Shown here piece after piece: positions 2,752 through 51,709 of a stretch of 64,000 bases of DNA (the stretch's first letter is position 1; each line of letters opens with the position of its first letter). Source of the DNA: Salminus brasiliensis (lineage: Eukaryota > Chordata > Actinopteri > Characiformes > Bryconidae); NCBI RefSeq assembly GCF_030463535.1, contig NC_132878.1, positions 97,451,570-97,515,569 on the forward strand. Reading direction: 5' to 3'. Made by a program: the position numbers and the translations under genes. The notes under the pieces are model-generated. The model saw only the letters and a list, made by a program, of their open reading frames with translations. It did not search any database and was not told where the DNA came from.

Positions 2752-5700
2752 TCAGCGAGCCCCCAGGTCCTGCATCATGTAGGGCTGCTGGTCCATCAGG
2801 ACTTGGTACAGAGCGGCCTTCCCCAAGTTGCCACTTGCTCTTAAGGCTTCACTAATCAAACAGCGCATCATCTTCTGGGCTGTTTTCTCGGCGCTGATTT
2901 CGCTGTATTGCTCGTTGTTGATGACCTTCCTGCACAGGAGCACGTCCAAGATTGACTCCACCCCAGTGGCTCTCTGCACCAGGTCCGCTGACTTCTCATC
3001 GATGAAGGCGGCTTTTGAGGCATCTAGAAGTGATGGTCAGAACACAGGGAGGGTGACTGTGAGGACGTTGATCTAGATTAGACTATTTCAGGTTCTTTTA
3101 GGTTCTCTGAACACACACATTACACCTACAGACACACCACACATCTATTTACCATTAGCTGGAGTTGCTGCACTGCCGGCTCCACCTGCAGAACAGCAAG
3201 ATGTTCGAGTCACTAGTTTGGTTAGTGAGACATGACCCATGTGAACATGCTATCACGAACATTCATGAGTGAATGTCTTCGGGACGCCTTTTGAGAACCT
3301 TGAAGAAACAACTACAGGCCAGTCAGCCAGACTTGAGTAAGTTCTGTGGAGAGCAGACTGGTATCCTGCTAACTAAGCTAATGCTAACCAGCTTCTCTCC
3401 TGACTCAGAGCAGTTTCACATTAGCAGCTGGCTTGGCTGGTTGAGCAGCACGGGGTGTGTTTTGATGGTTTGAATTAGCTGCTCTACAAACACGATCAAC
3501 CTGACCAGACTAGACAACCAGTATGACCCGGCTTGACCACACTGGTTGGCCAGCATGATCGGCATCGACAAGCTGGTGCACCAGAATGACCAGCTTGGCT
3601 AATGCTAAATGCAACGTACACTACACTGGTCAAGAGGTGGTTCACCAGCTAGCTTCCTAGTGTATGGTATGTTCAACATGTTCAACCACCTTGACCATCA
3701 AAGGCCAGATTAAAGGCCAGATGGCCTTTAGATGTTTTTTTGTTTTTTTTAGCAGGGACAATGTGGAAGCCATGTAAATGTAGGAGCACCCATTAATAGG
3801 TACACCCTGCCCATGGTAACATCATATACCATGCTAATATTAATATTTGGAGACAGTATGACTTTACGTAAACAGCTAGTCGCTATCGTCTTAAATACAA
3901 ACGCTGCTAGCTAGATTTTCAGATTAACAGGAAATACATTAGCCTTCATCCAGCTGCAAGAATAAGTAATAATAATAATAATTATAATAATAACTGAACT
4001 ATTTGCAACTGTAAAACTATAGACACACCACACCACATCTACCTACCTGGAGTCGCTGCGCTGGCTGATCCACCTGCAGAACATCAACACACGCTTTAGT
4101 TTGGGAAGTCAGACATGACCTCTGCACAATTAAATGCTAATAAAGACAATTAAAACAGCTGAAAAGGTCAGAGTCTAGATTCCAGAGAAAAACGACTGAA
4201 TATGTCTACTGAGAACCTAGAAAAGAGGATCCCGAGGATCATTTGATTGTTTATGGGCCAGTTTGTGTATCTTATATATATATATATATATATGCATACA
4301 TATATATATGCATGAATATACATACAGTGTATATATATATATATATATATACTGTATGTATATTCCATATATATAAGATACACCAACTGGCCCATAAACA
4401 ATCTATATTTGTTCTATGTTCTCATTTAAAGCTAAATGTTAAGATATATTTTTATATATATGTATAGATATTAATAAATTATCATAGTATGCTAACTGAG
4501 TTTCGAAGCTCAAACTTTTGTGTGGCTGAACATATATGTAAACATAGCTGCAATGGAAATGATTCAATCCTCATTGCCTCAATTATTTTGAGGATTTATT
4601 TGCTATCTTTACAAACTTTCAGCTGTTTGCAATCAACCAATTAAACAAGACTAATTTAAATATCTCAACACAACTAATAGAACAAGTGTTTTCTCCAGAT
4701 TCAGCACACAATACCACTTTTAACCTAACAAGTATAAAAACTAAACTTAGTCTTTGTACAGGAAGCCGTTTTTGCAAAAAAACAAACAAACAACAACAAC
4801 AACAATGTCCTCATATGAGGCAAAAGTGTCAAAGTTTAAAAGAAATGAAGTATGATGGTGCAGAGAAGCAGAAATGTAATGTCCTAATATGAGGACGCAG
4901 GGTCTCAAGAGGTTAATGACGACTGCAGTCTCAGAATTACTCTCCCCTTTCATCACAAGGGTCTTTAGTACTAAGTAGAGCCCAGAATCTCAGCCCATTC
5001 CTCATGGGCAGTGGCACTCTCTGATGTTTGCTGCTGCAAAATTAAAACTGAATCAAAGATTCTCTATGGGCTTCAAGTCAGGCGACTGTGACGCCCACTC
5101 CAGAATCTTCCAGGACTTCTTTTGAAACCAAGCCTTGGTGGACTTTGAGGTATGCTTGGGATCATTGTCCTGTTGCAAGGTCCAATGACGCCCAAGCTTC
5201 AGCTTCTTCTTAGAAGGAATTAGGTTTTCCTCTCCCAGGATTTCCTGATACTTGATTGATTCCATCTTTTCGACGACTCTCTTGCCATATTTCTAACACG
5301 CAGTCAAACGACAAGCAGTCGAACGACATGCAGCAAACCCCTCCAGAACTAGTCCAGGAATTTGATGTTTTAGCTCAATCTACCTGATGCAGCTGATAAA
5401 GCTCCTGATTTTCCACCTGATTTTGTGAAGTTGAGTTGAGGGTTGAATAATTCGGAGACTGCAGTTATTATTCTCTTAGTTGAGATTAGAGTTGAGATAT
5501 TTAAAGGGTTCTTGTGCTCACAGGGTAAATATTTGGCTAGATGTGTTGATCATAATGAGGTTGCTAACGTCTTAAATATAAATACTGCTAGCTAGATTTA
5601 CAGAAAATACATTAGCCTACATCCAGCAGCAAGAACAATAAATATAAGTGAGATATTGCTTTTTATTTCTTATTTAGAAAATTTTATATGGGTCTTGTTT

Positions 5701-7228
5701 GATTGGTGTATTACAAACAGCTAAATGTTTGGATTTACATAATAAACCAAAAAAAACAATAAATAAAGATATAAAGATATATATATAATATTATATAAAC
5801 ATATTATATTATATAATATAAATATTTGTTGTTTCACTCACCTGCTCCAGCAGACTGTGAGTATCCGTTTGCTAGAAAAAAAGAAAACATAATTAGTTCT
5901 GTCAGATCCCAATGGCATCATCAGCACATAAATTACAAATGTACAAAATAATTACTAAAATAAGCTACTACATTTTAGAGAACAAACGCTAAGGTAGCAC
6001 AAGCATTTATTCAGTACTATAAGTTTTATTTCAGTCCTCAGTGCTGATTACATTGGATAAATATTAACTCAGTACTTTCTGTATTAATTCAGTATTTTTG
6101 TCTAGTATTCTTAGTGCTTAACTACTAATCAAATAAGTACTAATTCAGCACTTAGTGTTTTTTGTACACATTACTTCAGTACGTTAGGTTTCATTTCAGT
6201 ACTCTCAATGCTGATTAAGTAACACATTACTTCAGTACTTTAGGTTTCATTTCAGTACTCTCAGCACAGATGCAGTAGTATAATTCAGTACTCTCAGTAA
6301 TAGTTAATGCATTCAGTACTTTAGGTTTCATTTCAGTACTCTCAGCACAAATTCAGTAGTTTAAGCATTAGTTTAGTATTCTCTGTGCTGATTAGGTTGG
6401 ATAAATGTTAATTCAGTACTTTAGGTTTCATTACAGTACTCTCAGCACAAATTCAGCAGTAAAGGTATCAACTCAGTACTCTCAGTGCTGATTAAGTAAC
6501 ACATTATTTCAGTACTTTAGGTTTCATTTCAGTACTCTCAGCACAGATGCAGTAGTATAGTTCAGTACTCTCAGTGATAGTTAATGCATTCAGTACTTTA
6601 GGTTTCATTTCAGTACTCTCAGCACAAATTCAGTAGTTTAAGCATTAGTTTAGTATTCTCTGTGCTGATTAGGTTGGATAAATGTTAATTCAGTACTTTA
6701 GGTTTCATTGCAGTACTCTCAGCACAGATTCAGTACTACAGGTATCAGTTCAGTACTGACTAAGCTGAATAAGTAGTCTACCCTGCCAATTCAGCAGTTG
6801 GTGTTTAACAGTCCCTCGCGCTCGTGCTTTGTATGTGTCGCTGTGGTTCTGCAGCAGAAGCAGGGGTGGACACGTCTCCACCTGAAAGTGAAACTAAAAC
6901 CCGTCTGCTCGGTTTCCTCGCTCGCGCTGCCCCGTCTCTCAGGTGAATAACCAGGCTCCTCACCTGCAGCCTCCTGTTCTAGATCCTCCGCTATCTGATT
7001 GGCACCGATGGTCCTCAGCAGCTGCACGGTGATCTCCAGCGCGCGCTTCTCCGTGTACGTTTCTATGAGAAGGCGCGCGACGTCTCCGCGGTCCTTCCCC
7101 TCCACGGCGCCCCTCCGCACGCGCGGCTGCAGCCCGGAGTCGGTCAGCTTAGCGGTGAACTTCTTAAACTGCTCCGAGTCCAGATCCTCCAGAGCCTCGA
7201 GCAGGATGTCCCACACGGACTTGGACAT
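2752..7228 (-). CDS. pycard: ASC inflammasome adaptor (PYD-CARD), five coding exons
   Basis: Adaptor that polymerises through its PYD and recruits caspases by PYD or CARD contacts (known of the family; cytosolic specks). Exons, in coding order: 6964-7228 (PYD, starts [16 protein letters not shown]), 5842-5871, 4047-4073, 3153-3185 and 2752-3023 (CARD, ends QDLGAR then TGA). All internal junctions are phase 1 with AG acceptors and GT donors. The total is 627 nt, 208 aa, close to the usual ASC length. PYD occupies residues 1-88, a Gly/Ala/Ser-rich linker from three mini-exons 89-118, and CARD about 119-208 ([33 protein letters not shown]). The start is the only ATG before the PYD and sits in a GC-rich first exon. 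Oddities: the PYD exon is almost identical to that of the next caspase gene, and two mini-exons are copies of each other. The mini-exons were predicted from splice sites only. Confidence 0.9.
3128..4125 (-). repeat. Duplicated mini-exon plus flanks in pycard
   Basis: Segments 3128-3240 and 4020-4125 match each other across a linker exon and its flanks. Both have AGACACACCACA-type sequence before the donor, a GCTG-rich exon encoding GGSASAATP or [11 protein letters not shown], the acceptor CTGCAG, and then a shared AGACATGACC. The ASC linker seems to have grown by tandem duplication of an exon. Confidence 0.75.
3480..3670. repeat. ACCAG/CTGGT-rich repeat in pycard intron 3
   Basis: Irregular runs of ACCAG, CTGGT, GACCAGCTTGG and similar words. 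The same vocabulary returns at 31430-31640 and in the larger arrays at 34450-36550, so this is a small member of a local repeat family. Confidence 0.6.
4247..4402. mobile_element. Short palindromic MITE-like element
   Basis: The ends are inverted repeats of about 32 bp (ATTGTTTATGGGCCAGTT outward end on both sides, one mismatch seen nearby). They enclose an almost pure TA/TATATG core that is itself nearly self-complementary. It lies in pycard intron 2. The superfamily is not recognised. Confidence 0.65.
5000..5280 (-). mobile_element. Tc1-like transposase relic
   Basis: Minus-strand translation gives [20 protein letters not shown], then [12 protein letters not shown]. These are the second catalytic Asp region and the final Glu region of a Tc1/mariner DDE transposase. 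Only about 70 codons are open and no terminal repeats were found nearby, so this is a truncated dead copy in pycard intron 2. Confidence 0.85.
5990..6780. repeat. TTCAGTACT-type degenerate minisatellite in pycard intron 1
   Basis: Many spaced copies of TTCAGTACTTTAGGTTTCAT and TTCAGTACTCTCAG, in a longer repeat in which about 120-290 bp blocks recur. The core TCAGTACT is shared with the larger array upstream of exon 1 (7690-10160), so the pycard PYD exon sits inside one repeat field. Confidence 0.8.
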
Positions 7229-7298
7229 GGTTCAGGGCAGCTCGCGCGCGTCCGCACTGGAGTCAGAAGACGAGAAGAAAGTTGAGCAGCTTTCCGGG

Positions 7299-7311
7299 GG
7301 CGGGGCTTCTT
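7299..7311. promoter_or_regulatory. pycard: GC box in pycard upstream region
   Basis: GGGGGCGGGGCTT lies about 75 bp upstream of the pycard ATG, matching an Sp1/KLF-type GC box. No clear TATA box was seen between it and the start. Function is inferred from position. Confidence 0.4.
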
Positions 7312-7376
7312 CTCTTCCAGGAAGTTAAAAACATCAGCCCACAGCTTCTGCCCCTCCTCCCTGAAGCATACGTCTA

Positions 7377-7690
7377 CATACACTGTCTGTCCAAAAGTTT
7401 GTGGACACCCCTTTTAAGGGATGCATTCAGCTGCTTTAGGATGCACCAGTTGCTGACACAGATGTGCAAATGCACACACAGCTTGTCTCTGTAGAGAAGA
7501 AGAACTGCCAATAGAATAGGACCCTCTGCAGGAGCAGATAAACACCATGCTGCCTAATAATGCCAGGCGTGGGCTAGAGGGGTATATATAAAGCCCCCCA
7601 GCATTGAGGAGCTGTGGAGCAGTGGAAGAGCTGTGTTCTCTGGAATGATGATGGTGGAGGAGCTCCATCCAGTACTTTTGGGATGAGTTA
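7377..7690 (+). mobile_element. MITE copy, TGTCCAAA-end family
   Basis: The left end reads TGTCCAAAAGTTTGTGGACA and the body has GCCAATAGAATAGGACCCTC and TGCCTAATAATGCCAGGCGT. The same body occurs at 40893-41390 and, reversed, at 38605-38935. This copy seems to lack a right terminal repeat because it merges into the minisatellite at about 7690. It lies in the pycard 5' flank. Confidence 0.75.
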
Positions 7691-9850
7691 GGTATTTTTG
7701 GTACTGTCAGTACTGCTAGTGCTACGTTCAGTATTATCAGTGCTAATTCAGTAGTATAGGTATTTAGTACTGTCAGTACTGTCAGTGCTAATTCAGTAGT
7801 ATAGGTATTTAGTACTGTCAGTACTGTCAGTACTAATTCAGTAGTATAGGTATTTAGTACTGTCAGTACTGTCAGTGCTAATTCAGTAGTATAGGTATTT
7901 AGTACTGTCAGTACTGTCAGTACTAATTCAGTAGTATAGGTATTTAGTACTGTCAGTACTGTCAGTGCTAATTCAGTAGTATAGGAATTTTTCAGTACTG
8001 TCAGTGCTAATTCAGTAGTATAGGTATTTTAGTACTGTTAGTGCTGCTAGTGCTAATTCAGTAGTATAGGAATTTAGTACTGTTAGTGCTAATTTAGTAG
8101 TATAGGAATTTGTTCAGTACTGCTAGTGCTACTTCAAGTAGTATAGGTATTTTGGTACTGTCAGTACTGCTAGTGCTACTTCAAGTAGTATAGGTATTTT
8201 GGTACTGTCAGTACTGCTAGTGCTAATTCAGTAGTATAGGCATTTGTTCAGTATTATCAGTGCTAATTCAGTAGTATAGGTATTTAGTACTGTCAGTGCT
8301 AATTTAGTAGTATAGGAATTTGTTCAGTACTCTTAGTGCTACTTCAGTAGTATAGGTATTTTTGGTACTGTCAGTACTGTTAGTGCTACTTCAGTAGTAT
8401 ATGTACTTTAGTACTTTTAGTGCTTATTCAGGAGTATAGGTATTTGTTCAGTACTGTCAGTGCTAATTTAGTAGTATAGGAATTTGTTCAGTACTGTTAG
8501 TGCTACTTCAGTAGTATAGGTATTTTGGTACTGCCAGTACTGCTAGTGCTAATTCAGTAGTATAGGCATTTGTTCAGTATTATCAGTGCTACTTCAGTAG
8601 TATACATATGTTGGTACTGTCAGTACTGCTAGTGCTACTTCAAGTAGTATAGGTATTTTGGTACTGTCAGTACTGCTAGTGCTAATTCAGTAGTATAGGT
8701 ATTTGTTCAGTATTATCAGTGCTAATTCAGTAGTATAGGTATTTAGTACTGTCATTGCTAATTTAGTAGTATAGGAATTTGTTCAGTACTGTCAGTGCTA
8801 CTTCAGTATTATAGGTATTTTTGGTACTGTTAGTGCTGTTAGTGCTAATTCAGTAGTATATGTATTTTTTTCAGTACTGTAAGTGCTACTTCTGTAGTAT
8901 AGGTATTTTAGTACTGTTAGTGCTGTTAGTGCTAATTCAGTAGTATAGGTATTTTAGTACTGTTAGTGCTGTTAGTGCTAATACAGTAGTATAGGTATTT
9001 TTCAGTACTGTCAGTACTAATTCAGTAGTATAGGTATTTTAGTACTGTTAGTGCTGTTAGTGCTAATACAGTAGTATAGGTATTTTTCAGTACTGTCAGT
9101 ACTAATTCAGTAGTATAGGTATTTTAGTACTGTTAGTGCTAATTCAGTAGTATAGGTATTTTTCAGTACTGTCAGTACTAATTCAGTAGTATAGGTATTT
9201 TAGTACTGTTAGTACTGTTAGTGCTAATTTAGTAGTATAGGTATTTTCAGTACTGTTCGTGCTAATTCAGTAGTATAGGTATTTTAGTACTGTTAGTGCT
9301 GTTAGTGCTAATACAGTAGTATAGGTATTTTTCAGTACTGTCAGTACTAATTCAGTAGTATAGGTATTTTAGTACTGTTAGTGCTAATTCAGTAGTATAG
9401 GTATTTTTCAGTACTGTCAGTACTAATTCAGTAGTATAGGTATTTTAGTACTGTTAGTGCTGTTAGTGCTAATTCAGTAGTATAGGTATTTTTCAGTACT
9501 GTCAGTACTAATTCAGTAGTATAGGTATTTTAGTACTGTTAGTGCTAATTCAGTAGTATAGGTATTTTTCAGTACTGTCAGTACTAATTCAGTAGTATAG
9601 GTATTTTAGTACTGTTAGTGCTGTTAGTGCTAATTCAGTAGTATAGGTATTTTTCAGTACTGTCAGTACTAATTCAGTAGTATAGGTATTTTAGTAAAGT
9701 TAGTGCTGTTAGTGCTAATTCAGTAGTATAGGTATTTTTCAGTACTGTCAGTACTAATTCAGTAGTATAGGTATTTTCTTAGAACTGTTTGTGTTTTTCA
9801 GTACTGTTTGTGCTAATTTAGTAGTATAGGTATTTTTTCGGGACTGTTGG
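7690..9850. repeat. TTCAGTAGTATAGGTATTT minisatellite upstream of pycard
   Basis: About 2.2 kb of repeats built on TTCAGTAGTATAGGTATTT plus one or two copies of AGTACTGTCAGTACT or AGTACTGTTAGTGCT. Periods vary by the number of short modules (about 36-54 bp). Diverged units go on to about 10160. It fills most of the space between pycard and the next caspase gene. Confidence 0.9.
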
Positions 9851-10277
9851 TGTTTATTACATCAGTACAATCTGTATTAATAGGTATTCATTCAGTAATT
9901 TAGGAGTTATTGAGATTTCAGTAAAGTTGGTTCATAATCAGTAGTATATGGAGCTAACTTGCTTTCAGCCCTGCCATTGCTATTTCAGTAATCTAGGCAT
10001 TGATTCAGTACCAGATGTTATTTCAGCACTGTCAGTGCTAAATCCATAGTATAGGTATTCATTCACTATTGTTACTGCTAATTCAGTAGTATAGGTATTT
10101 ATTAAGCACTGCAGGTGCTACATTAATGGTTAAATTACAGTAGGCTCTTTCTTCAGTACGTTTGGTAGTAATTAATACTCCAGGTGTTTTCAGAAGTGAA
10201 ATAATTTCAGTAATGAAGGTCAATCAGAAAATTGAGAAATAATTCACTGTGGATACTGTGCATCATTATTAAAATTC

Positions 10278-10283
10278 TTTATT
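10278..10283 (-). promoter_or_regulatory. Probable poly(A) signal of the first caspase gene
   Basis: AATAAA on the minus strand, 133 bases past the caspase stop codon at 10416. It would end a short 3' UTR before the minisatellite begins. Confidence 0.5.
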
Positions 10284-10415
10284 AATCACATTTATGTCAC
10301 ACCAGGGAGGCATGAGGCATCATATCAGCTGTAGTGTACTTCCCTTACATGGTATTATATGTCAGTTGAGCAGAATGTAATGTAAAAGTAGGCTGATGTT
10401 GATGTCGCTCTCCTC

Positions 10416-13400
10416 TCAGAGCCCTGGGAACAGGTAGAACAACTTTGTGAGAGAAATTCGATCCTTAGACACCATCTGTCTAAAGCGCCGGAAGTTCTCA
10501 AAACGTCTCATAACCTGTAACAGTAAAGGAGGAACACATTACACTCTGAGCTGAGCTTAGAGACTGAAACACTGTAGACCTGATTTATAGGGCAGTGTTG
10601 TCTCATATACATAAACAGAATCCTAATGTATAGTGCACATCTCAGTATTATAAGAGCAGCATTCCATATACAGTATATATCTTATATATATGAGCAGCAT
10701 TCCATATACAGTATATATCTTATATATTTAATATATATGAGCAGCATCCCATATACAGTATATATCTCATATATATGAGCAGCATCCCATATACAGTATA
10801 TATCTCATATATATGAGCAGCATCCCATATACAGTATATATCTTATATATTTAATATATATGAGCAGCATCCCATATACAGTATATATCTCATATATATG
10901 AGCAGCATCCCATATACAGTATATATCTTATATATTTAATATATATGAGCAGCATCCCATATACAGTATATATCTTATATACAATATATGAGCAGCATCC
11001 CATATACATCATATATCTCATATATATGAGCAGCATCCCATATACAGTATATATCTCATATATATTTAATATATATGAGCAGCATCCCATATACAGTATA
11101 TATCTTATATATTTAATATATATGAGCAGCATCCCATATACAGTATATATCTCATATATATGAGCAGCATCCCATATACAGTATATATCTTATATACAAT
11201 ATATGAGCAGCATCCCATATACAGTATATATCTCAGATATATGTAATATATACAATATATGAGCAGCATCCCATATACAGTACATATCTCATATATATTT
11301 AATATATATGAACAGCATCCCATATACAGTATACTGTATATATCTCATATATATATATATATATATATACATTTGAAGTGGCCTAGTAAATGGTCTAAAT
11401 ACTTGTCCATGTCCAAGTTTAGCTTTTCCTTTTCAATAAATTTGCAGCATTTCTAAAATTTCAGTTTTAATTTTTTTATTTGAGCACAAAGCAGCCGCAA
11501 CATGACAAAATGTGAAAAACGTGAAAGGGTCTGAAGACTGCCCGAATGCAATGTGTGTGAACTGTCTCCCCTATACAGAATGTGTCTCATAGACATGTAT
11601 GATTAGAATCGCATGAGTATGAAGTGCTGCTGGACTTGCCTGTCGGAACAGCTCCTCGATGTGGTCCTTATGCGCATTAGCGTTGAACACCTCCACCAGG
11701 AATCCAATGAAGTATGCTCCGTTTTCTACGTTCCTGAAAGATACGGTGTCTGTGGAAAACAACAGTCTTATTCAATTTTAATAAAAATTTGAACAAACAA
11801 AAAGTTTCTTCACCGACCTGAAGAACAACCTTCTCGGCATCAGTTTTAAAATTCTAGGCATAAAAAAAAATAAAAAAATAAAAATATAGAGTCTGGAGAC
11901 CAGACTTGCTTAGGCAGCTGCGTCACTCAGGAACCCGGGATCCCCTAGCCTAGCGGATCTGGAAGTTAAAAATGGTCTCACATATCGGTGAAAGTCTCTA
12001 AGCTTAAGCATAGGAAGGCTTATTACACACTAAAGTGTATTACTCAGTAGCTACGGGGGCTTTTGTACAAGCGGCGGGGGGGGGGGGGGGGGGGCTGTTC
12101 TTTAGTAACAGAAGTATGTAATAACACTGACGGCCGGTTGGCGGCCCACAGGCTGTAGTATCCTAATAACGGACAGTCAGGTGGTCAGGGTGCAGTGGGA
12201 TGAGGGTAAACCAATGGTCACCACGAGGTCCTACTCACCGGGGGTGCAGGAGAACAGGGAGACGAAATCCTTCTCTTTATGTTCCCACACACCATCAATC
12301 TCCATGTCGTCTGATTCGCTGTCAGAGACCCACACACGCCCATGCCTGTCTACACATATAGAATGGAGAACGTGACTGACTCCCACTCTCTGTCACCAGA
12401 GCTGAAAACACCCACCCCCTTCTCCCAGACCGAGCCTGTCCCACACCTCCTTTATTAAGCTTACAGATATACACTGAGGAGGCGGAGCTACAGTCTCTGG
12501 TTAGGGTGAATATTAATAATGCTCTAAATGTAGGTATTGTGATATACACTGAGGAGGAGGAGCTACAGTCTCTCATTAGGGTGAATATTAATAACGCTCT
12601 AAATGTAGGTATTGTGATATACACTGAGGAGGCGGAGCTACAGTCTCTCATTAGGGTGAATATTAATAACGCTCTAAATGTAGGTATTGTGATATACACT
12701 GAGGAGGAGGAGCTACAGTCTCTCATTAGGGATGAATATTAATAATGCTCTAAATGTAGGTACTGTGATATACACTGAGGAGGCGGAGCTACAGTCTCTC
12801 ATTAGGGTGAATAATAATTAATAACACTCTAAATGTAGGTATTGTGATATACACTGAGGAGGAGGAGCTACAGTCTCTCATTAGGGTGAATATTAATAAC
12901 GCTCTAAATGTAGGTATTGTGATATACACTGAGGAGACGGAGCTACAGTCTCTCATTAGGGTGAATATTAATAACGCTCTAAATGTAGGTATTGTGATAT
13001 ACACTGAGGAGGCGGAGCTACAGTCTCTCATTAGGGTGAATATTAATAACGCTCTAAATGTAGGTATTGTGATATACACTGAGGAGGAGGAGCTACAGTC
13101 TCTCATTAGGGATGAATATTAATAATGCTCTAAATGTAGGTATTGTGATATACACTGAGGAGGCGGAGCTACAGTCTCTCATTAGGGTGAATAATAATTA
13201 ATAACACTCTAAATGTAGGTATTGTGATATACGCTGAGGAGGCGGAGCTACAGTCTCTCATTAGGGTGAATATTAATAACGCTCTAAATGTAGGTATTGT
13301 GATATACGCTGAGGAGGCGGAGCTACAGTCTCTCATTAGGGTGAATATTAATAACGCTCTAAATGTAGGTATTGTGATATACGCTGAGGAGGCGGAGCTA

Positions 13401-16400
13401 CAGTTTCTCATTAGGGTGAATATTAATAACGCTCTAAATGTAGGTATTGTGATATACACTGAGGAGGCGGAGCTACAGTCTCTCATTAGGGTGAATATTA
13501 ATAACGCTCTAAATGTAGGTATTGTGATATACACTGAGGAGGAGGAGCTACAGTCTCTCATTAGGGATGAATATTAATAATGCTCTAAATGTAGGTATTG
13601 TGATATACACTGAGGAGGCGGAGCTACAGTCTCTCATTAGGGTGAATATTAATAACGCTCTAAATGTAGGTATTGTGATATACACTGAGGAGGCGGAGCT
13701 ACAGTCTCTCATTAGGGTGAATATTAATAACGCTCTAAATGTAGGTATTGTGATATACACTGAGGAGGCGGAGCTACAGTCTCTCATTAGGGTGAATATT
13801 AATAACGCTCTAAATGTAGGTATTGTGATATACACTGAGGAGGCGGAGCTACAGTCTCTCATTAGGGTGAATATTAATAACGCTCTAAATGTAGGTATTG
13901 TGATATACACTGAGGAGGCGGAGCTACAGTCTCTCATTAGGGTGAATATTAATAACGCTCTAAATGTAGGTATTGTGATATACACTGAGGAGGAGGAGCT
14001 ACAGTCTCTCATTAGGGATGAATATTAATAATGCTCTAAATGTAGGTATTGTGATATACACTGAGGAGGCGGAGCTACAGTCTCTCATTAGGGTGAATAA
14101 TAATTAATAACACTCTAAATGTAGGTATTGTGATATACACTGAGGAGGCGGAGCTACAGTCTCTCATTAGGGTGAATATTAATAACGCTCTAAATGTAGG
14201 TATTGTGATATACACTGAGGAGGAGGAGCTACAGTCTCTCATTAGGGTGAATATTAATAACGCTCTAAATGTAGGTATTGTGATATACACTGAGGAGACG
14301 GAGCTACAGTCTCTCATTAGGGTGAATATTAATAACGCTCTAAATGTAGGTATTGTGATATACACTGAGGAGGCGGAGCTACAGTCTCTCATTAGGGTGA
14401 ATATTAATAACGCTCTAAATGTAGGTATTGTGATATACACTGAGGAGGAGGAGCTACAGTCTCTCATTAGGGATGAATATTAATAATGCTCTAAATGTAG
14501 GTATTGTGATATACACTGAGGAGGCGGAGCTACAGTCTCTCATTAGGGTGAATAATAATTAATAACACTCTAAATGTAGGTATTGTGATATACGCTGAGG
14601 AGGCGGAGCTACAGTCTCTCATTAGGGTGAATATTAATAACGCTCTAAATGTAGGTATTGTGATATACGCTGAGGAGGCGGAGCTACAGTCTCTCATTAG
14701 GGTGAATATTAATAACGCTCTAAATGTAGGTATTGTGATATACGCTGAGGAGGCGGAGCTACAGTCTCTCATTAGGGTGAATATTAATAACGCTCTAAAT
14801 GTAGGTATTGTGATATACACTGAGGAGGCGGAGCTACAGTCTCTCATTAGGGTGAATATTAATAACGCTCTAAATGTAGGTATTGTGATATACACTGAGG
14901 AGGAGGAGCTACAGTCTCTCATTAGGGATGAATATTAATAATGCTCTAAATGTAGGTATTGTGATATACACTGAGGAGGCGGAGCTACAGTCTCTCATTA
15001 GGGTGAATAATAATTAATAACACTCTAAATGTAGGTATTGTGATATACGCTGAGGAGGCGGAGCTACAGTCTCTCATTAGGGTGAATATTAATAACGCTC
15101 TAAATGTAGGTATTGTGATATACGCTGAGGAGGCGGAGCTACAGTCTCTCATTAGGGTGAATATTAATAACGCTCTAAATGTAGGTATTGTGATATACGC
15201 TGAGGAGGCGGAGCTACAGTCTCTCATTAGGGTGAATATTAATAACGCTCTAAATGTAGGTATTGTGATATACACTGAGGAGGCGGAGCTACAGTCTCTC
15301 ATTAGGGTGAATATTAATAATGCTCTAAATGTAGGTATTGTGGTATACACTGAGGAGGCGGAGCTACAGTCTCTGGTTAGGGTGAATATTAATAATGCTC
15401 TAAATGTAGGTAATGTAATATACACTGAGGAGGCGGAGCTACAGTCTCTGGTTAGGGTGAATATTAATAATGCTCTAAATGTAGGTATTGTGATATACAC
15501 TGAGGAGGAGGAGCTACAGTCTCTCATTAGGGTGAATAATAATTAATAACGCTCTAAATGTAGGTATTGTGATATACACTGAGGAGGAGGAGCTACAGTC
15601 TCTCATTAGGGTGAATATTAATAACGCTCTAAATGTAGGTATTGTAATATACACTGAGGAGGCGGAGCTACAGTCTCTGGTTAGGGTGAATATTAATAAT
15701 GCTCTAAATGTAGGTATTGTAATATACACTGAGGAGGCGGAGCTACAGTCTCTCATTAGGGTGAATATTAATAACGCTCTAAATGTAGGTATTGTAATAT
15801 ACACTGAGGAGGCGGAGCTACAGTCTCTGGTTAGGGTGAATATTAATAATGCTCTAAATGTAGGTATTGTGATATACACTGAGGAGGCGGAGCTACAGTC
15901 TCTCATTAGGGTGAATATTAATAACGCTCTAAATGTAGGTATTGTGATATACACTGAGGAGGCGGAGCTACAGTCTCTCATTAGGGTGAATAATAATTAA
16001 TAACGCTCTAAATGTAGGTATTGTGGTATACACTGAGGAGGAGGAGCTACAGTCTCTCATTAGGGTGAATATTAATAACGCTCTAAATGTAGGTATTGTG
16101 ATATACACTGAGGAGGAGGAGCTACAGTCTCTCATTAGGGATGAATATTAATAATGCTCTAAATGTAGGTATTGTGATATACACTGAGGAGGCGGAGCTA
16201 CAGTCTCTCATTAGGGTGAATAATAATTAATAACACTCTAAATGTAGGTATTGTGATATACGCTGAGGAGGCGGAGCTACAGTCTCTCATTAGGGTGAAT
16301 ATTAATAACGCTCTAAATGTAGGTATTGTGATATACACTGAGGAGGCGGAGCTACAGTCTCTCATTAGGGTGAATATTAATAACGCTCTAAATGTAGGTA

Positions 16401-19400
16401 TTGTGATATACGCTGAGGAGGCGGAGCTACAGTCTCTCATTAGGGTGAATATTAATAACGCTCTAAATGTAGGTATTGTGATATACACTGAGGAGGAGGA
16501 GCTACAGTCTCTCATTAGGGATGAATATTAATAATGCTCTAAATGTAGGTATTGTGATATACACTGAGGAGGCGGAGCTACAGTCTCTCATTAGGGTGAA
16601 TAATAATTAATAACACTCTAAATGTAGGTATTGTGATATACGCTGAGGAGGCGGAGCTACAGTCTCTCATTAGGGTGAATATTAATAACGCTCTAAATGT
16701 AGGTATTGTGATATACGCTGAGGAGGCGGAGCTACAGTCTCTCATTAGGGTGAATATTAATAACGCTCTAAATGTAGGTATTGTGATATACGCTGAGGAG
16801 GCGGAGCTACAGTCTCTCATTAGGGTGAATATTAATAACGCTCTAAATGTAGGTATTGTGATATACACTGAGGAGGCGGAGCTACAGTCTCTCATTAGGG
16901 TGAATATTAATAATGCTCTAAATGTAGGTATTGTGGTATACACTGAGGAGGCGGAGCTACAGTCTCTGGTTAGGGTGAATATTAATAATGCTCTAAATGT
17001 AGGTAATGTAATATACACTGAGGAGGCGGAGCTACAGTCTCTGGTTAGGGTGAATATTAATAATGCTCTAAATGTAGGTATTGTGATATACACTGAGGAG
17101 GAGGAGCTACAGTCTCTCATTAGGGTGAATAATAATTAATAACGCTCTAAATGTAGGTATTGTGATATACACTGAGGAGGAGGAGCTACAGTCTCTCATT
17201 AGGGTGAATATTAATAACGCTCTAAATGTAGGTATTGTAATATACACTGAGGAGGCGGAGCTACAGTCTCTGGTTAGGGTGAATATTAATAATGCTCTAA
17301 ATGTAGGTATTGTAATATACACTGAGGAGGCGGAGCTACAGTCTCTCATTAGGGTGAATATTAATAACGCTCTAAATGTAGGTATTGTAATATACACTGA
17401 GGAGGCGGAGCTACAGTCTCTGGTTAGGGTGAATATTAATAATGCTCTAAATGTAGGTATTGTGATATACACTGAGGAGGCGGAGCTACAGTCTCTCATT
17501 AGGGTGAATATTAATAACGCTCTAAATGTAGGTATTGTGATATACACTGAGGAGGCGGAGCTACAGTCTCTCATTAGGGTGAATAATAATTAATAACGCT
17601 CTAAATGTAGGTATTGTGGTATACACTGAGGAGGAGGAGCTACAGTCTCTCATTAGGGTGAATATTAATAACGCTCTAAATGTAGGTATTGTGATATACA
17701 CTGAGGAGGCGGAGCTACAGTCTCTCATTAGGGTGAATATTAATAATGCTCTAAATGTAGGTATTGTGATATACGCTGAGATGTGATCAGTTTAACAGAT
17801 AGTTGTTTAAAATAACTGTAGAAAATGAACAGAAATAAATATGAAATATTAGTATTACCTCCTCTGCAGGCCTGAATCAGAATAACCTTGGGTTTGTCGC
17901 GCAGAGCCGGGCAGTTCGCTGTGTTCAGGTGTGTGTAGATATTGTCCACAGGAAGGAAATCCTTGTCATTGTCTGGTCCATGATGGACCCCCAAAATTTT
18001 GTCTTTCTTTCCGTGAGACATAATGACCACGAAGGTGCTGTCTGATTCTGCATGCTCGCTACGTCCAGCAAAGCTCCTAATCGCCTCGTCCATTTCCTGA
18101 AAAAACAACCAGTCTCAGTTTATTACTGGTGGAGTTGTGGGCGGTAGGCGTGTTCTGTGCTAATTATGCTAACTCTTGTGAAGACAACTGAATGTAATGG
18201 ACACTATTTTTAATGTCAATAAAAATCTTTATCTGCAGTTAGCTAATTAGCTAATTAGCTTCTTTACAAATGAACGGTCAGTGATATATAAAGAAGGGGT
18301 TCTAGCAGTTATTGGATTGCAGGCTTGGTGGACCTATACTTCCTTAGGACACTTGGAGGTTCTGCATAGGGCACATTTCATCCACCCTTCCCTTCCCAAC
18401 TCTTCCTGAGTTTCCAGCTGGTCCTCAATTTTTTGGAGGTCTCAGAATCCACAGCGTCAGCTTTCAACATTGGTGGGCTTCCTCCCCTTTTCATTTTATT
18501 GGTTAAGATCCTCTTTCTTCCAGTTTTGCTTCCTCTTCTCTGTTCTTCCTCCATCAGTGCTTCCTTCTCTAGAGTAACAGTGAGGGTTTCTGACTGCCCG
18601 ACCTTCCTGATCCTGCCAGTGGTTTACCATGGCCCTGCTTTTGTAAATAGCCACATAGGTAAAGGACAGAACACCAGACCTACAGATAACCCTGAAGTAC
18701 CTGGTCCATCTGGAGCAATGGACAATGCAGTAGGTAGGCTGGAGGAGAGGAGGTAGTCCCCAAAGGGGAAAGAGGAGGCAGTTGCCAGGTGAGCAGAGAA
18801 AGCCGTCGCCAGGTGAGGAGGGAAACCATCCCCAGGTGAGTTGGGGGAGAGTAAGGCTGGAAAGCGGGAAAGCTTCAGGCAGTGGTGGATCATCGGTTAG
18901 AGCTCCGGGCTGTTGATGACAGGGCTGTGGGTTTGAGACCTAGGCTCGGCAAGATGTCACTGTTGGGCCCTTGAGCAAGATTCTTTACCCTCTCTCTGCT
19001 CCCCGGGCTACCGTCTTCACAATGTCATATAGGGTCGTCATCTTGAGACTCCCAGACTCCCATCACTACCAGTGTTCGCCATATTCCTACATGGGCTGTA
19101 GAGACTACAATGCAGCAGCTGAGGTTTATGGCTATAGTGGGTCAATAGCTGAGCCACTTTGACAAGGGCCAAATTGTCGGACGACAGATACCATTACAAG
19201 AACTTTGCGTATCGGACGATAACAGATACCGATTCGATTCCACTGTTTAATTAATAACCTTAGATTTACTACATTTAGTAAACTCACTTAATCAATACTT
19301 TACTAACTTAAACTATAACAAATGAATTCAGATATTAATGAACATAATTTCTGTTTATTGGTCACTAAAATCAATAACTGTGCTGGACCTCGACACAGTG

Positions 19401-22400
19401 CTGTCCGGACTCAAATCTCAAAATCTGTGAGACTAAAGAGGAGCGAGCAGCCCCTCCCTTCTCGGTTCTCCGTATATGGAAGACAAGCAACAGGTGGAGA
19501 TAGGCGGAGTCCTGCTGTTTGTCATGATCTGTGTATGATGTCTGTAGGTTACTCTGATCCTGGGTTATGAAGCCTAGAAAACCGAGAATCTGGTACCGTG
19601 AATGGATCAAACGTTTGGATCAGACTAATTATCCAATATTCAACCAGCAAATTTTGTTAGTATCGGGCCGATATTCGATCCTAGTATCGGATTGGTGCAT
19701 CCCTAGTGGGTACATACAGATAGAGGTCTGAGCAAGGACAGACTACCAGCTGGCAACAGGGTGTTGGGTGATAACTGGTCAGACATGAAGACCTGAGCCG
19801 TTCTGACAAGGGACACACTGATATGTCCAGACGTCTTGATCTTGCTGCTTGTAGGCAGATTCAAGCAAGTTGTGGTGGGTAACTACCAACAGTGGGTCGA
19901 GAAGGGACAAATCACAGGGTGCTGGGCTACTGCAGAAGAACTCTTAACAAAAAGATGATGGTTACTGGTGGAAAAACCTCACATCACACAGTGCAGCACC
20001 CTCCTGCTACATAGCTGCAGATCTGTTAGAGTGCCCATGCTAACCCCTGTCTACCGTCAAAAGTGCCTACAGTAGCACACCCAAGTGTTCGGACTGGACC
20101 TTAAGGCAAAGAAAGAAGGTGGCCTGGTCTGATGAGGACTCTTTTCTTTTAGGTCACTTGGTTGGGCAGGTAAGCATTCACCATTTACCTGCGGGACAGG
20201 TCGTCTCGCAACTGACAGGAGTTCAAAGATCTGCTGGAAAGGCTTTAGAGGTTTTGTAGAATGAGCTGTTTTGGTGGCACTCCTCTTGCACCCAGTGGTG
20301 GACCAGTGGGTAAAGCACTGGTTTGATGTTTGTAGATGTTACATATTTCCATCAAACTTTCGGACCTTTTCCAATTTGTCTGCCCCCTACGCTGGTGGGT
20401 CGGTGGACTTCACAGACGTTCACCAGTGATCAAGATATATATCTAATAGCCGATGTGTTGGATGTGGGAGAAATGGTCAGGCATGAAGACCTGATGCCAA
20501 CTTGAGATGTCCAGGTGTCCGGGTCAGAATATCTTCAAAACGTCGAGGCTTGTGGGGGGCTTCTTGTCAGACGTGGTGGGTAACTACCCACAGTGGACCG
20601 AGGAGGGACAAATCAAAAAACGGTGACGGGGTGTTGGGTGCCCGAGGCTCATCAATGTATGAGGAAAACAAAGGCTATCCCATCTGGGCTGAACTGATAG
20701 ACAGCGTCCCAAGTCAGGAAAAACGACAAGAGCCAAACATTGTTGATGTTCTAGATAAACGACTGGGTCAGAACATCTCCAAAACATCAGGCAGGTCTTG
20801 TGGGGTATTCCCAATGTGCAGTGGCCAGTATCTACCTACCGGCGACAGGGTCATGGACGCCCAAGGCTCACTGATGCTCATGGAGGCCCCGCCCACCTCA
20901 CAACATACAGAATTTAAATGATCGCTGCTCACGTTAGCCTTGGTGCCAGATACTACAGGACTACAGGACACCTTGTGGAGTCCATGACTCGAATGGTCAG
21001 AGCTGTTGTTTATGTCACGGCTGAGTGGTGTAAGTCACTGGTGTCCAGTTTCCAGCCCTGACAACCACCAGGTGGCATCAGAGTAAACGCTGTTATGGTC
21101 ATGTGACTCCTATCTTATGCCTGATTGGTGGAAGTTGTTAAACATCTTAGCATTAGTCTCCATGTTGTTGACTCACCCGGCCAGAGAGGTTGGTGTGCTT
21201 TACTACATCATAGCCCAGACCTCTCAGCAGTGTCTCCATGTTCTCCTCGTCTATCTGAGCTCCATTCCTTCTCAAATTAGCGTTGTCAAACTCCACGTTG
21301 TTGATGAGCAGAGCCAAGCGCTTCCTTGTACCCTTATCTAGAACATGGTAAATCTGAGGAAATATATACATACATATACATATATATATTAGTTCATTGT
21401 CCTGTTTCTGACACCCCATGTTGTCCTTCAGTGGGTGGACTTTAATACATGCTTCAAAATAAGGGGGCTTTGGAGTGGTTCCACCAAGGAACCTTTTTTA
21501 TTTTTTGGAGTTTAAAGAACCTCCGCATAAGAAAGAACTTTACACCCCAAATAAAAACTAATTAACCCCTTAAAACAGCTTATTTTAGCAATTTTTTAAC
21601 CCCCTTTGCACAAATAACTGAATGAGATGGTGAGTTTGCTGTGAAGCGCTCGGTTCTAGATAAGCTCCCCCAGTCAGAGCTGGAGTTCTACAGTGGAGGT
21701 TCTAGATAAGCTCCCCCAGTCAGAGCTGGAGTTCTACAGTGGAGGTGAAGGGAAGCAGACGTCTGAAGCTCTAATAATAAAAGCTCCTCACAGAAAGTTC
21801 TTCACCTAATGGTGATGAAGACGCTGCCTGATGCCTGAGACACGGTTCTACCAGAGTTCTGAGAAGAGTTCGGCTCTAGAACCTGCTTTTAAAATCAGAT
21901 CATTAAAATGGTGGAGGGATACATGCTGCAGGGTGTAGTGCAGCTACAGAAAGTAGTCCCTAAAGAGAACTGGATTAGTTCAGATTCTCTATTCACTATT
22001 TTACCTTCATCATCATCATCATCGTCATTCCATATAACCCACTGGTGGGTTTGGATAGGAGATAAATTATGGGCTGTATCTGTGTTGTTGTAGTCATGGC
22101 GACCGACGCCTGCTTCCATTCACCTCCACTGTAAAGTCAGATTCCTACCTCCTTTCCTTTTTCTCTGAGGACGTTCTCCTTGAACTGGGGGGTGCAGTGA
22201 ATGAGAGCAGAGTTGGGGTTGGGTGGAAGGGTTGGAGAATCCCCTGCAGAAGGAATTTCAGGGTCTGTGGTAACGTCAGATTGAAGTGGAGGTTCAGGTT
22301 GAGGCGCTTGGCGAACGAAATCTGAGAACAACGACATTAGGACAGAGATTAGCTTGGTAACCAGACTGCTAAATTTCTTGATGAATGGACCAATAGAAAT

Positions 22401-24645
22401 GATCCCAAATAACTTGGAATCCATTTTTTACACTGATGTTTTTCCTCATTATGTAAAGCTGGAATTTTGTTGATACCAGGATGTTTGACATCACAGCAAC
22501 ACTCGGTTTGTATACAGTCTACAGAAACCTGCATTACAACTGCATTAACCGTGCCTTAATAGGGTGTAAATATGTATTAGGGTGTAATAGGGTGTATTAA
22601 GAATGCCATATAGGGTGTTAGGGTGTCTAAACATGGTGTAAATAGAGCGTTAGGGTGTATTTATGGTGCCTAAATATGGTGTAGTTAGGGTGTATTTAGG
22701 ATGCCAAAATAGAGTGTTAGGGTGTTTAAACAGAGTGTAAGGGTATGTTTGGGGAGCCTAAATAGGGTGTATTTAGGATGTTAGGGTCTATTTTGGGTGC
22801 TTAAATAGGGTGTTAGGGTGTATTAAGGGCGTGCCTGAATAGGGTCTATTTAGGGTGCCTAAATAGGGTGTCTTTCAGCCAGCACACAGCTAATCCATAT
22901 ACAGATATATTTCTTTAAGGCCAGAATAATTCAGAATAATTGATGTTTATATATAGTATATAACGTTAATAAGGTTAGTGATGTTTATATATAGTATATA
23001 ATGTTAATAAGGTTAATGATGTTTATATATAGTATATAACGTTAATGAGGGTAATGATGTTTATATATAGTATATAACGTTAATTAGGGTAATGATGTTT
23101 ATTTATAGTATATAACGTTAATTAGGGTAATGATGTTTATATATAGTATATAAAGTTAATTAGGGTAATGATGTTTATTTATAGAATATAACATTAATAA
23201 GGTTAATTATGTTTATATATAGTATGTAACGTTAATAAGGTTAGTGATGTTTATATATAGTATATAATGTTAATAAGGTTAGTGATGTTTATATATAGTA
23301 TATAACGTTAATTAGGGTAATGATGTTTATATATAGTATATAACGTTAATAAGGTTAGTGATGTTTATATATAGTAAATAACGTTAATTAGGGTAGTGAT
23401 GTTTATATATAGTATATAATGTTAATAAGGTTAGTGATGTTTATATATAGTATATAACGTTAATAAGGTTAGTGATGTTTATATATAGTATATAACGTTA
23501 ATAAGTTTAGTGATGTTTATATATAGTATATAACGTTAATAAGGTTAATGATGTTTATATATAGTATATAAAGTTAATTAGGGTAATGATGTTTATATAT
23601 AGTATATAACGTTAATAAGTTTAGTGATGTTTATATATAGTATATAATGTTAATAAGGTTAGTGATGTTTATATATAGTATATAACGTTAATAAGTTTAG
23701 TGATGTTTATATATAGTATATAACGTTAATAAGTTTAGTGATGTTTATATATAGTATATAACGTTAATAAGGTTAATGATGTTTATATATAGTATATAAA
23801 GTTAATTAGGGTAATGATGTTTATTTATAGAATATAACGTTAATTAGGGTAATGATGTTTATATATAGTATATAACGTTAATAAGGTTCATTATGTTTAT
23901 ATATAGTATATAACGTTAATAAGGTTCATTATGTTTATATATAGTTAATGATGTATATTAATCAGGTATATTGTTTATATATTATATATAGTTAATGATG
24001 TTTATATATAGTATATAAAGTTAATTAGGGTAATGATGTTTATATATAGTATATAAAGTTAATTAGGGTGATGATGTTTATTTATAGAATATAACGTTAA
24101 TTAGGGTAATGATGTTTATATATAGTATATAACGTTAATAAGGTTAATGATGTTTATATATAGTATATACAGTTAACTAGGGTAATGATGTTTTTATATA
24201 TAGTATATAAAGTTAATTAGGGTAATGATGTTTATTTATAGAATATAACGTTAATTAGGGTAATGATGTTTATATATAGTATATAAAGTTAATAAGGTTC
24301 ATTATGTTTATATATAGTATATAACGTTAATAAAGGTGATCAATAAAGACCCCCCCCCCTCTCCTCCCCCTCCTCCTCACCTGCAGCCTCCTGTTCTAGA
24401 TCCTCCGCTATCTGATTGGCACCGATGGTCCTCAGCAGCTGCGCGGTGATCTCCAGCGCGCGCTTCTCCGTGTACGTTTCAATGAGAAGGCGCGCGACGT
24501 CTCCGCGGTCCTTCCCCTCCACGGCGCCCCTCCGCACGCGCGGCTGCAGCCCGGAGTCGGTCAGCTTAGCGGTGAACTTCTTAAACTGCTCCGAGTCCAG
24601 ATCCTCCAGAGCCTCGAGCAGGATGTCCCACACGGACTTGGACAT
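10416..24645 (-). CDS. casp1: PYD-containing caspase-1-like inflammatory caspase, copy 1
   Basis: Cysteine protease that cuts after Asp; the family acts in ASC inflammasomes, pyroptosis and interleukin-1-type cytokine processing. Exons in coding order: 24381-24645 (PYD), 22149-22321 (linker), 21177-21353, 17859-18096 (p20), 12239-12349, 11640-11749 and 10416-10514 (p10). The total is 1173 nt, 390 aa. PYD is residues 1-88. The catalytic region begins near CTPQFKENVL and IYHVLDKG. Catalytic His233 is in VVIMSHG and Cys282 in QACRG. Exon 5 holds the Asp-rich p20/p10 linker (SDSESDDMEID), then EKDFVSLFSCTP; the protein ends FYLFPGL-like (LFYLFPGL). Intron 6 uses a GC donor (CAG then GCAAGT). Intron 4 is almost wholly a 75-bp minisatellite. 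Whether this is the orthologue of zebrafish caspa or caspb is not settled, so the symbol is a family label. Confidence 0.93.
10640..11370. repeat. GAGCAGCATCCCATATACAG minisatellite in caspase-1 copy 1 intron 6
   Basis: About 17 units of GAGCAGCATCCCATATACAG plus a variable TATATCTCATATATAT spacer, 37-57 bp each. The reading frames it opens on both strands are repeat artefacts. The equivalent intron of the second caspase is only 92 bp. Confidence 0.9.
11376..11565 (+). mobile_element. Tc1-like transposon end, relic
   Basis: The sequence CAATAAATTTGCAGCATTTC, followed later by GACAAAATGTGAAAAACGTG and GTCTGAAGACTGCCCGAATG, resembles the terminal part of a common fish Tc1-like element (recognised from memory). 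No transposase remains. It is in intron 6. Confidence 0.55.
12076..12094 (+). repeat. Run of 19 G
   Basis: An uninterrupted G tract in caspase copy 1 intron 5, C-rich in the transcript. It may be length-variable or a sequencing weak point. Confidence 0.9.
12466..17780. repeat. 75-bp minisatellite filling caspase copy 1 intron 4
   Basis: About 70 units with the core GTGAATATTAATAACGCTCT, AAATGTAGGTATTGTGATAT and ACTGAGGAGGCGGAGCTACA. The unit is exactly 25 codons with no stop on either strand, which explains the long mirrored frames. Variant junctions (GGGATGAATATT, then AATAATAATTAATAAC about 90 bp on) recur at 380- or 455-bp spacing and shift the frame, showing higher-order units. The block starting near 14940 is repeated 1593 bp later. 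The array stops about 80 bp from the catalytic exon 4. Confidence 0.97.
18110..18870. other. Intron 3 sequence of caspase copy 1, no gene seen
   Basis: A small AGCTAATT repeat lies at 18240-18262. The frame at 18433-18756 has no recognisable domain and no splice support. The region 18740-18850 has three imperfect copies of a GCCAGGTGAG-type word. Confidence 0.4.
18872..19010 (+). mobile_element. tRNA-derived SINE-like fragment
   Basis: It has an A-box-like word (TCGGTTAGAGCTCCGG) and a B-box-like word (GGGTTTGAGACC) at tRNA-like spacing. TTGAGCAAGATTCTTTACCC follows, which is usual in fish SINE tails. A related copy lies in reverse at 33690-33862. No intact tRNA fold is claimed. Confidence 0.6.
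19700..20990 (+). mobile_element. Decayed Tc1-like transposon with internal rearrangement
   Basis: Around 20030-20170 the plus strand resembles a fish Tc1-type transposase region. It has GCCCATGCTAACCCCTGTCT, AAGAAGGTGGCCTGGTCTGA and then CTTTTCTTTTAGGTCAC, corresponding to protein words like PMLTPV and a WSDESRF-like site, now broken by stops. Words such as ACAAATCA with GGGTGTTGGGTG, and GTGGGTAACTACC, occur two or three times, so copies are nested or duplicated. It lies in caspase copy 1 intron 3. Confidence 0.6.
21651..22105 (+). repeat. Left arm of a large inverted repeat
   Basis: This segment, from GGTTCTAGATAAGCTCCCCC to TTGTTGTAGTCATGGCGAC, is matched in reverse complement by 24862-25325, with small differences and a variable CATCAT tract. 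The left arm also has an internal 53-bp direct duplication at its start. It lies in caspase copy 1 intron 2. Confidence 0.85.
22560..22880 (+). repeat. Degenerate TTAGGGTGT-type repeat
   Basis: Some twenty copies of TAGGGTGT joined by short spacers such as ATTTAGGGTGCCTAAA. It resembles telomeric TTAGGG but never forms clean TTAGGG runs. It lies in caspase copy 1 intron 1. Confidence 0.75.
22930..24335 (+). repeat. 38-bp minisatellite in caspase copy 1 intron 1
   Basis: About 36 units carrying GATGTTTATATATAGTATAT then AACGTTAATAAGGTTAGT. Variants with AATTAGGGTAAT alternate. It ends about 45 bp from the PYD exon. Confidence 0.95.
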
Positions 24646-24712
24646 GGTTCAGGGCAGCGCGAGCGCGAGATCGAGAACTACGGGAAATGAGGAAACACAC
24701 CCGCTTACAGCC

Positions 24713-24720: not shown

Positions 24721-24861
24721 CTGCTGCTGCTGGGTAGGTGTACAGGCACTGCAGTGCGCATGCGCACAACACACCTGTGTAGGAAGTGTGTAAGCCTGCA
24801 TTACCACGTGCTTCTGCAACTGTCTGAGGGAGCAGGGATCTGAAAAAGGGAAACTCTGTCG

Positions 24862-25345
24862 CCATGACTACAACACAGATACAGCCCATAATTTATCTCC
24901 TATCCAAACCCACCAGTGCAGCTACACGAGTTTTATATGGAATGATGATGATGATGATGATGATGAAGGTGGTGGTAAAATAGTGAATAGAGAATCTGAA
25001 CTAATGCAGTTCTCTTTAGGGACTACTTTCTGTAGCCGCACTACACCCTGCAGCATGTATCCCTCCACCATTTTAATGATCTGATTTTAAAAGCAGGTTC
25101 TAGAGCCGAGCTCTTCTTAGAACTCTGGTAGAACCGTGTCTCAGGCATCAGGCAGCGTCTTCATCACCATTAGGTGAAGAACTTTCTGTGAGGAGCTTTT
25201 ATTAGAGCTTCAGACGTCTGCTGCCCTTCACCTCCACTGTAGAACCACAGCTCTGACTGGGGGAGCTTATCTAGAACCTCCACTGTAGAACTCCAGCTCT
25301 GACAGTGGGGAGGTTATCTAGAACCGAGCATTTCACAGCAAACCT
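24862..25345 (-). repeat. Right arm of the large inverted repeat
   Basis: Reverse complement of 21651-22105, running from GTCGCCATGACTACAACACA to TTATCTAGAACCGAGC. The two arms enclose the PYD and linker exons of caspase copy 1 and its 38-bp array. The arm starts about 215 bp upstream of the ATG, so it may overlap the promoter. Confidence 0.85.
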
Positions 25346-51700: not shown

Positions 51701-51709
51701 GTATTCTGA

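Follow-up and report, generated by a model that had tools for sequence, protein, structure and literature searches.

Near-identical PYD exons in ASC and caspase genes of a Salminus brasiliensis cluster point to recurrent exon-limited gene conversion

The PYD exons of the ASC (pycard) gene and of a neighbouring caspase gene, caspA, differ at only 2 of 265 bases in a tandem cluster of Salminus brasiliensis. Judging from the sequences of all copies in the cluster, recurrent non-allelic gene conversion confined to the exon very probably keeps the two almost identical, and the distribution of variants among the copies suggests that the PYD exon is still being exchanged between ASC and caspA. The first-pass annotation of this DNA had proposed recent gene conversion or exon copying. 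That proposal is supported, with two amendments: a single event would not suffice, and exon 4 of caspA and of a further caspase gene, caspB, appears to have been converted as well.

Gene models and shared exon tracts

The stretch of DNA analysed (the window, 64,000 nucleotides) is C1:97451570-97515569 of the S. brasiliensis assembly GCF_030463535.1, which comprises 1.066 Gb in 103 contigs; C1 (NC_132878.1) is chromosome-scale, at 99.4 Mb. Coordinates are those of the window unless C1 is given, and the features are listed in Table 1.

Table 1. Genes, exon tracts and dispersed element copies in the window, with exons in transcript order.
Feature	Position	Strand	Details
ASC/pycard gene	2752..7228	-	7228-6964 (PYD), 5871-5842, 4073-4047, 3185-3153, 3023-2752 (CARD)
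caspA gene	10416..24645	-	24645-24381 (PYD), 22321-22149, 21353-21177, 18096-17859, 12349-12239, 11749-11640, 10514-10416
caspB gene	27999..38349	-	38349-38076 (other-type PYD), 34248-34076, 31953-31777, 31282-31045, 29759-29643, 28299-28190, 28097-27999
Shared PYD tract, ASC side	6956..7241	-	13 nt 5'UTR, exon 1 and 8 nt intron
Shared PYD tract, caspA side	24373..24658	-	13 nt 5'UTR, exon 1 and 8 nt intron
Putative second converted tract, caspA side	17854..18130	-	exon 4 with 34 nt of upstream and 5 nt of downstream intron
Putative second converted tract, caspB side	31040..31316	-	exon 4; 10 mismatches in 277 nt to 17854-18130
Dispersed ~490-bp element	24855..25343	+	by right edge of duplicated unit; unit homology stops at 24829, upstream of caspA exon 1
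Inverted copy of ~490-bp element	21634..22106	-	43 bp past caspA exon 2; 91% identical to 24855-25343

The five exons of ASC encode 208 aa with Pfam PYRIN (residues 8-81, 3.8e-18) and CARD (residues 125-206, 2.3e-13) domains. Both caspase genes have seven exons (390 aa for caspA, 395 aa for caspB) and Pfam PYRIN and Peptidase_C14 domains, with the catalytic His (SHG) and Cys (QACRG) encoded by exon 4; among PDB structures, caspA is closest to a caspase-1 chain. By their PYD prodomain, caspase domain and the SHG and QACRG motifs, caspA and caspB qualify as predicted PYD-type inflammatory caspases. The frames of the three genes are open and all splice sites are canonical except for the exon 6 donor of each caspase, a GC donor (gcaagt) at 11639 in caspA and 28189 in caspB that also occurs in the second caspA described below. 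The cluster is adjoined by an ETS-type transcription factor gene, seen as two minus-strand segments within 42108-43658 that carry halves of the ETS domain (Pfam Ets). The PYD-type set of the genome amounts to two ASC genes, two caspA genes and one caspB gene, to which one C9 caspase is added; in the 30 kb surrounding the latter no PYD was found, and a CARD match was at chance level (E 0.95).

The two differences between the PYD exons of ASC and caspA are a silent one at exon position 165 (ATA/ATT, Ile55) and a replacement at position 203 (GTG/GCG, Val68/Ala68), as the first-pass annotation had described. It had placed the ends of the match about 12 bases before the ATG and about 8 bases into the intron; exact identity extends over 13 nt of the 5'UTR and precisely 8 nt of the intron. 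Over the resulting 286 nt there are 2 mismatches, and the flanks are unrelated. BLAST lengthened the alignment to 295 nt with 4 mismatches and aligned no flanking sequence past that. The PYD of the second caspase, said by the annotation to be clearly different, is indeed so: caspB shares 41 of 83 residues and 62% of nucleotides with the ASC PYD, and the near identity of ASC and caspA is thus far beyond that seen for the cluster's third PYD exon. Synonymous changes number 1 in 66 between the ASC and caspA exons versus 28 in 64 between those of ASC and caspB (Fisher p = 1e-9). Chance was rejected, with a probability of about 1e-55 for 284 matches in 286 positions against the 62% background.

A second tract, which the first-pass annotation had missed, joins caspA and caspB. 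Their fourth exons are 95-96% identical (dS 0.12), as compared with 54-77% for exons 2, 3, 5, 6 and 7 and 62% for the PYD exon. The intron just upstream of exon 4 has 33 of 34 bases in common, whereas each of the remaining six exons has 12-16 in common over this length, and synonymous changes amount to 5.5/51.5 in exon 4 versus 58/105 in exons 3, 5, 6 and 7 (p = 6e-8). On these comparisons, the exon 4 tract reads as a second exon-limited exchange, between another pair of genes. A genome search with exon 4 listed four matches, the fourth being the C9 caspase, at 59%; this caspase gave no help on the direction of the exchange. Taken together, the PYD and exon 4 tracts indicate that exon-limited exchange happened at least two times in the cluster, between different gene pairs. 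A spliced RNA was considered as the template and rejected, since intron bases lie inside both tracts (8 nt at the PYD exon, 34 and 5 nt at exon 4).

An older relic of a PYD or CARD exon was sought among the 2759 open segments of the window. Only three strong PYD matches (130-131 bits) and one strong CARD match were obtained, the remaining matches having E >= 1.5; as the profiles drew on few sequences, a worn relic might have gone unnoticed. Very long tandem arrays lie in and between the genes (12466-17780, 7727-9777, 22941-24333 and 51709-53920), among them a 75-bp unit repeated 70 times in caspA intron 4 and a 38-bp unit repeated 37 times in intron 1.

The duplicated unit and the five PYD exons

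To the left of the window, C1:97411570-97451569 contains a second ASC and a second caspA with frames open over all exons, together with a fragment that carries exons 1-2 of ASC and one additional caspA exon 7. This left unit is known from one assembly. A genome search with the PYD gave at least 21 matches, of which five were near-identical (97-100%) and all in the cluster, three of them left of the window; the remaining 16 of the at least 21 were caspB, at 49%, and 15 others at 31-38%. To look for a further ASC outside the cluster, the whole genome was searched with a CARD query; two of the nine matches listed were in the cluster (100 and 96%) and the next stood at 40%. Comparison of the units shows 3 differences in the 908 bases of caspA exons 2-7, 5 in the 272 of the ASC CARD exon and 79 in 10815 aligned non-coding sites (0.73%). 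With the rate taken to be 2-7e-9 per site per year, a rough age of 0.5-1.9 My follows, which was not taken as evidence.

The second ASC (PYD exon C1:97424330-97424594) has Leu13Gln in the first PYD helix and, compared with the ASC of the window, five further changes outside the PYD exon; Trp6Arg is common to the second ASC and the second caspA. An insertion of ~3.7 kb is present in the window unit only, and a minus-strand frame within it (2-1387) encodes Pfam endonuclease domains of a reverse-transcriptase element.

The dispersed ~490-bp element occurs at 8 places in 124 kb, including both edges of the units and the junction between them. This placement suggests, but does not prove, that the duplication was made by element-mediated unequal crossing over. 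The inverted pair within the window encloses caspA exons 1-2 and hence the entire prodomain, and recombination between its members would flip that segment.

Flanking sequence sorts the five PYD exons into three ASC copies (1-3 mismatches per 345-360 nt) and two caspA copies, the flanks of which have 0 differences in 180 nt upstream and 9 in 180 nt downstream, where a tandem array begins. The exons themselves are related otherwise. ASC exons differ from each other at 4, 4 and 4 sites, from caspA exons at 2, 2, 4, 2, 2 and 4 sites, and the two caspA exons differ at 2, so that every ASC exon is closer to some caspA exon (2) than to the other ASC exons (4). The first-pass annotation had named trees with the PYDs grouped by gene as the outcome that would speak against exchange; within this genome, they do not group in that way. 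No site of the 265 has a fixed difference between ASC and caspA, the variation at sites 16 and 165 involves the same bases in ASC as in caspA, and all four combinations occur at the site pairs 16/135 and 135/165. In two blocks around caspA exons 1-2, with arrays excluded, all 1022 aligned non-coding sites agree between the two copies of the gene, yet their PYD exons differ at two sites, at each of which both bases are present in ASC copies.

The variable sites number six in all, and contrasts taken singly are weak (p = 0.04 and 0.055). Two of the sites, 16 and 203, are CpG, where recurrent mutation is possible; 135 and 165 are not CpG. With caspB as an outgroup, no polarity was obtained at sites 16 and 165. 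The numbers being small and the single contrasts weak, the argument rests on the combined pattern. From the lack of any fixed difference, the variants common to both genes and the four-combination pairs, exchange of the exon between ASC and caspA most likely went on after the duplication. Two features that mark ectopic gene conversion are present: the relationships of the tract disagree with those of the flanks across the five copies, and the near identity is sharp-edged between unrelated flanks and includes silent and non-coding sites. As to mechanism, DNA-templated repair between tandem copies would halt where homology ends, that is, at the exon edges, and the recent tandem duplication would have added further templates.

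Among the alternatives, a one-off capture or conversion of the exon, by caspA or by ASC, before the tandem duplication, with no exchange afterwards, is considered unlikely. It would account for tract edges that are the same in both units, and the divergence of the ASC and caspA exons (2/265) is near that of the units (79/10815). It also predicts that the ASC exons group together and that some differences are fixed, whereas none is fixed, two variants cross between the genes and four-combination pairs occur; parallel mutation would be needed at both shared sites, of which 165 is not CpG. Selection on the PYD, purifying or convergent and with no exchange of sequence, is scarcely credible. In its favour, the PYD is a protein-interaction module; against it, silent sites are alike too (1 in ~66, versus 28 in 64 for ASC and caspB), which rules out selection alone, and the match takes in 13 UTR and 8 intron nucleotides, as well as 33 of 34 intron bases at exon 4.

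Two fish haplotypes can differ by 0.73%, and a single assembly underlies both units; the left unit might accordingly be a retained second haplotype, or polishing might have made the exons alike. We regard such an artefact as very improbable. The contig is chromosome-scale and the units differ in structure, the ASC fragment and extra caspA exon 7 being confined to the left one and the ~3.7-kb insertion to that of the window. Moreover, the ASC and caspA exons are 2/265 apart within each unit, which haplotype error could not produce, and polishing is blind to exon edges. Assembly collapse of the PYD exons is likewise unlikely, given their distinct flanks, the copy-specific variants, the recurrence in the second unit and the ends at exon edges.

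Older exchanges and expected function

The zebrafish ASC PYD (PDB 5gpp) had six listed matches in the genome, all in the cluster. The best was the caspB exon 38349-38076 (58%, 92.5 bits), followed by ASC (43%, 53.5 bits); with the zebrafish ASC CARD, the two ASC CARDs of the cluster came first among 11 listed matches, at 43%. PYD grouping was examined with FastTree and a distance bootstrap. When human and mouse ASC served as outgroups, 1938 and 1939 of 2000 quartet replicates paired the caspB PYD with zebrafish ASC, and 1708 of 2000 did so with human pyrin as the outgroup; FastTree gave this grouping a support of 0.79. These results suggest that ASC and caspA carry a PYD that is not orthologous to that of zebrafish ASC, and that there were earlier PYD transfers between these genes. 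The recipient of the foreign PYD may have been ASC and not the caspase. Against earlier movement speaks the finding that, relative to zebrafish, the PYD of ASC has diverged no further than its CARD (43% each), and the long ASC/caspA branch may have been attracted to the outgroup. Viral contigs gave 8 pattern matches, with no relative among them.

The AlphaFold model of the ASC PYD, made from a three-sequence alignment, has six helices and a mean pLDDT of 88; the five models scored 88, 87, 85, 55 and 50. Foldseek with the predicted structure gave four matches at E <= 0.001, to the PYDs of NLRP3, pyrin and human ASC. The Val68/Ala68 site falls in the predicted fifth helix.

According to PMC6721725, the PYD of zebrafish Asc is required for self-assembly and for PYD-PYD recruitment of an inflammatory caspase, and the PYD of Caspa binds Asc, whereas that of Caspb does not. 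A review states that zebrafish Caspb also co-localises with ASC (PMC8122782), and PYD identity may for this reason not be required for recruitment. Opto-CARD is reported to have killed no cells that lacked endogenous ASC (PMC10328535). By analogy with the zebrafish work, ASC would recruit this type of caspase through PYD-PYD and not CARD-CARD contacts, a PYD in common would make caspA an equal subunit in assemblies of the ASC PYD, and through conversion a change in either PYD would pass into that of the partner. The suggestion of the first-pass annotation that both proteins would have the same filament-forming domain is plausible from the zebrafish work. Since those of the window are one residue apart, co-assembly would be the natural expectation, and a likely effect of conversion is that matching PYD surfaces are kept in adaptor and protease.

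Whether conversion acts as a functional lock between the adaptor and its client protease we rate as evenly balanced. The full case remains tentative: an alteration of either PYD would be copied to the partner or erased, so that the pair evolves as a single module, with possible traffic towards ASC that would have left a caspase-derived PYD in ASC and the older ASC-type PYD surviving in caspB. Both ratings are judgements and were not computed. Homotypic death-fold domains must match between partners, yet adaptor and protease genes, being separate, should diverge; conversion confined to an exon would explain both the kept match and a joint change of the recruitment domain across a set of partners. 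If this is true, the swaps of CARD and PYD prodomains in fish caspases would have a genetic mechanism, and the matter is relevant to a question still open in fish immunity, the exchange of CARD for PYD in caspase-1-like proteases.

Comparison with known systems

Among the literature matches listed, titles and the opening parts of abstracts describe no PYD exchange between ASC and a caspase. Changes of the caspase recruitment domain between fish lineages are on record: gene conversion has been proposed for card-casp8 (PMC2779465) and PYD re-acquisition for goby caspase-1 (PMC6988351), the round goby paper reports both types, the PYD type included, outside cyprinids (PMC6988351), and a CARD/PYD prodomain swap is drawn in Figure 2 of PMC6721725. 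As far as the accessible text of these three papers goes, those swaps were inferred from trees, whereas here the partner exons, tract edges and mosaic copies are visible. The zebrafish pycard/caspa/caspb locus resembles the present one in having caspases with a PYD prodomain beside pycard, PYD-PYD recruitment and a prodomain-less caspase elsewhere; it differs in that the available portions of PMC6721725, PMC10328535 and PMC8122782 mention no near-identical PYD exon in asc and caspa.

In primate SIGLEC11/SIGLEC16, repeated conversion homogenises the domain-coding part of neighbouring immune genes and binding is kept alike (PMC5701461). The parties there are two receptors of the same family with homologous extracellular parts, as that source presents them; here they are an adaptor and a protease with a single common exon, through the product of which they would be expected to bind each other. 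Conversion also acts separately on the NACHT and B30.2 parts of the zebrafish NLR-B30.2 genes, again fish genes of inflammasome type, although the portion of PMC4852459 at hand concerns a large family of like genes and no exchange between different kinds of gene. Domain-limited conversion between immune genes is thus already known; what differs here is that the proteins are unlike, that one exon is involved and that binding is expected through it.
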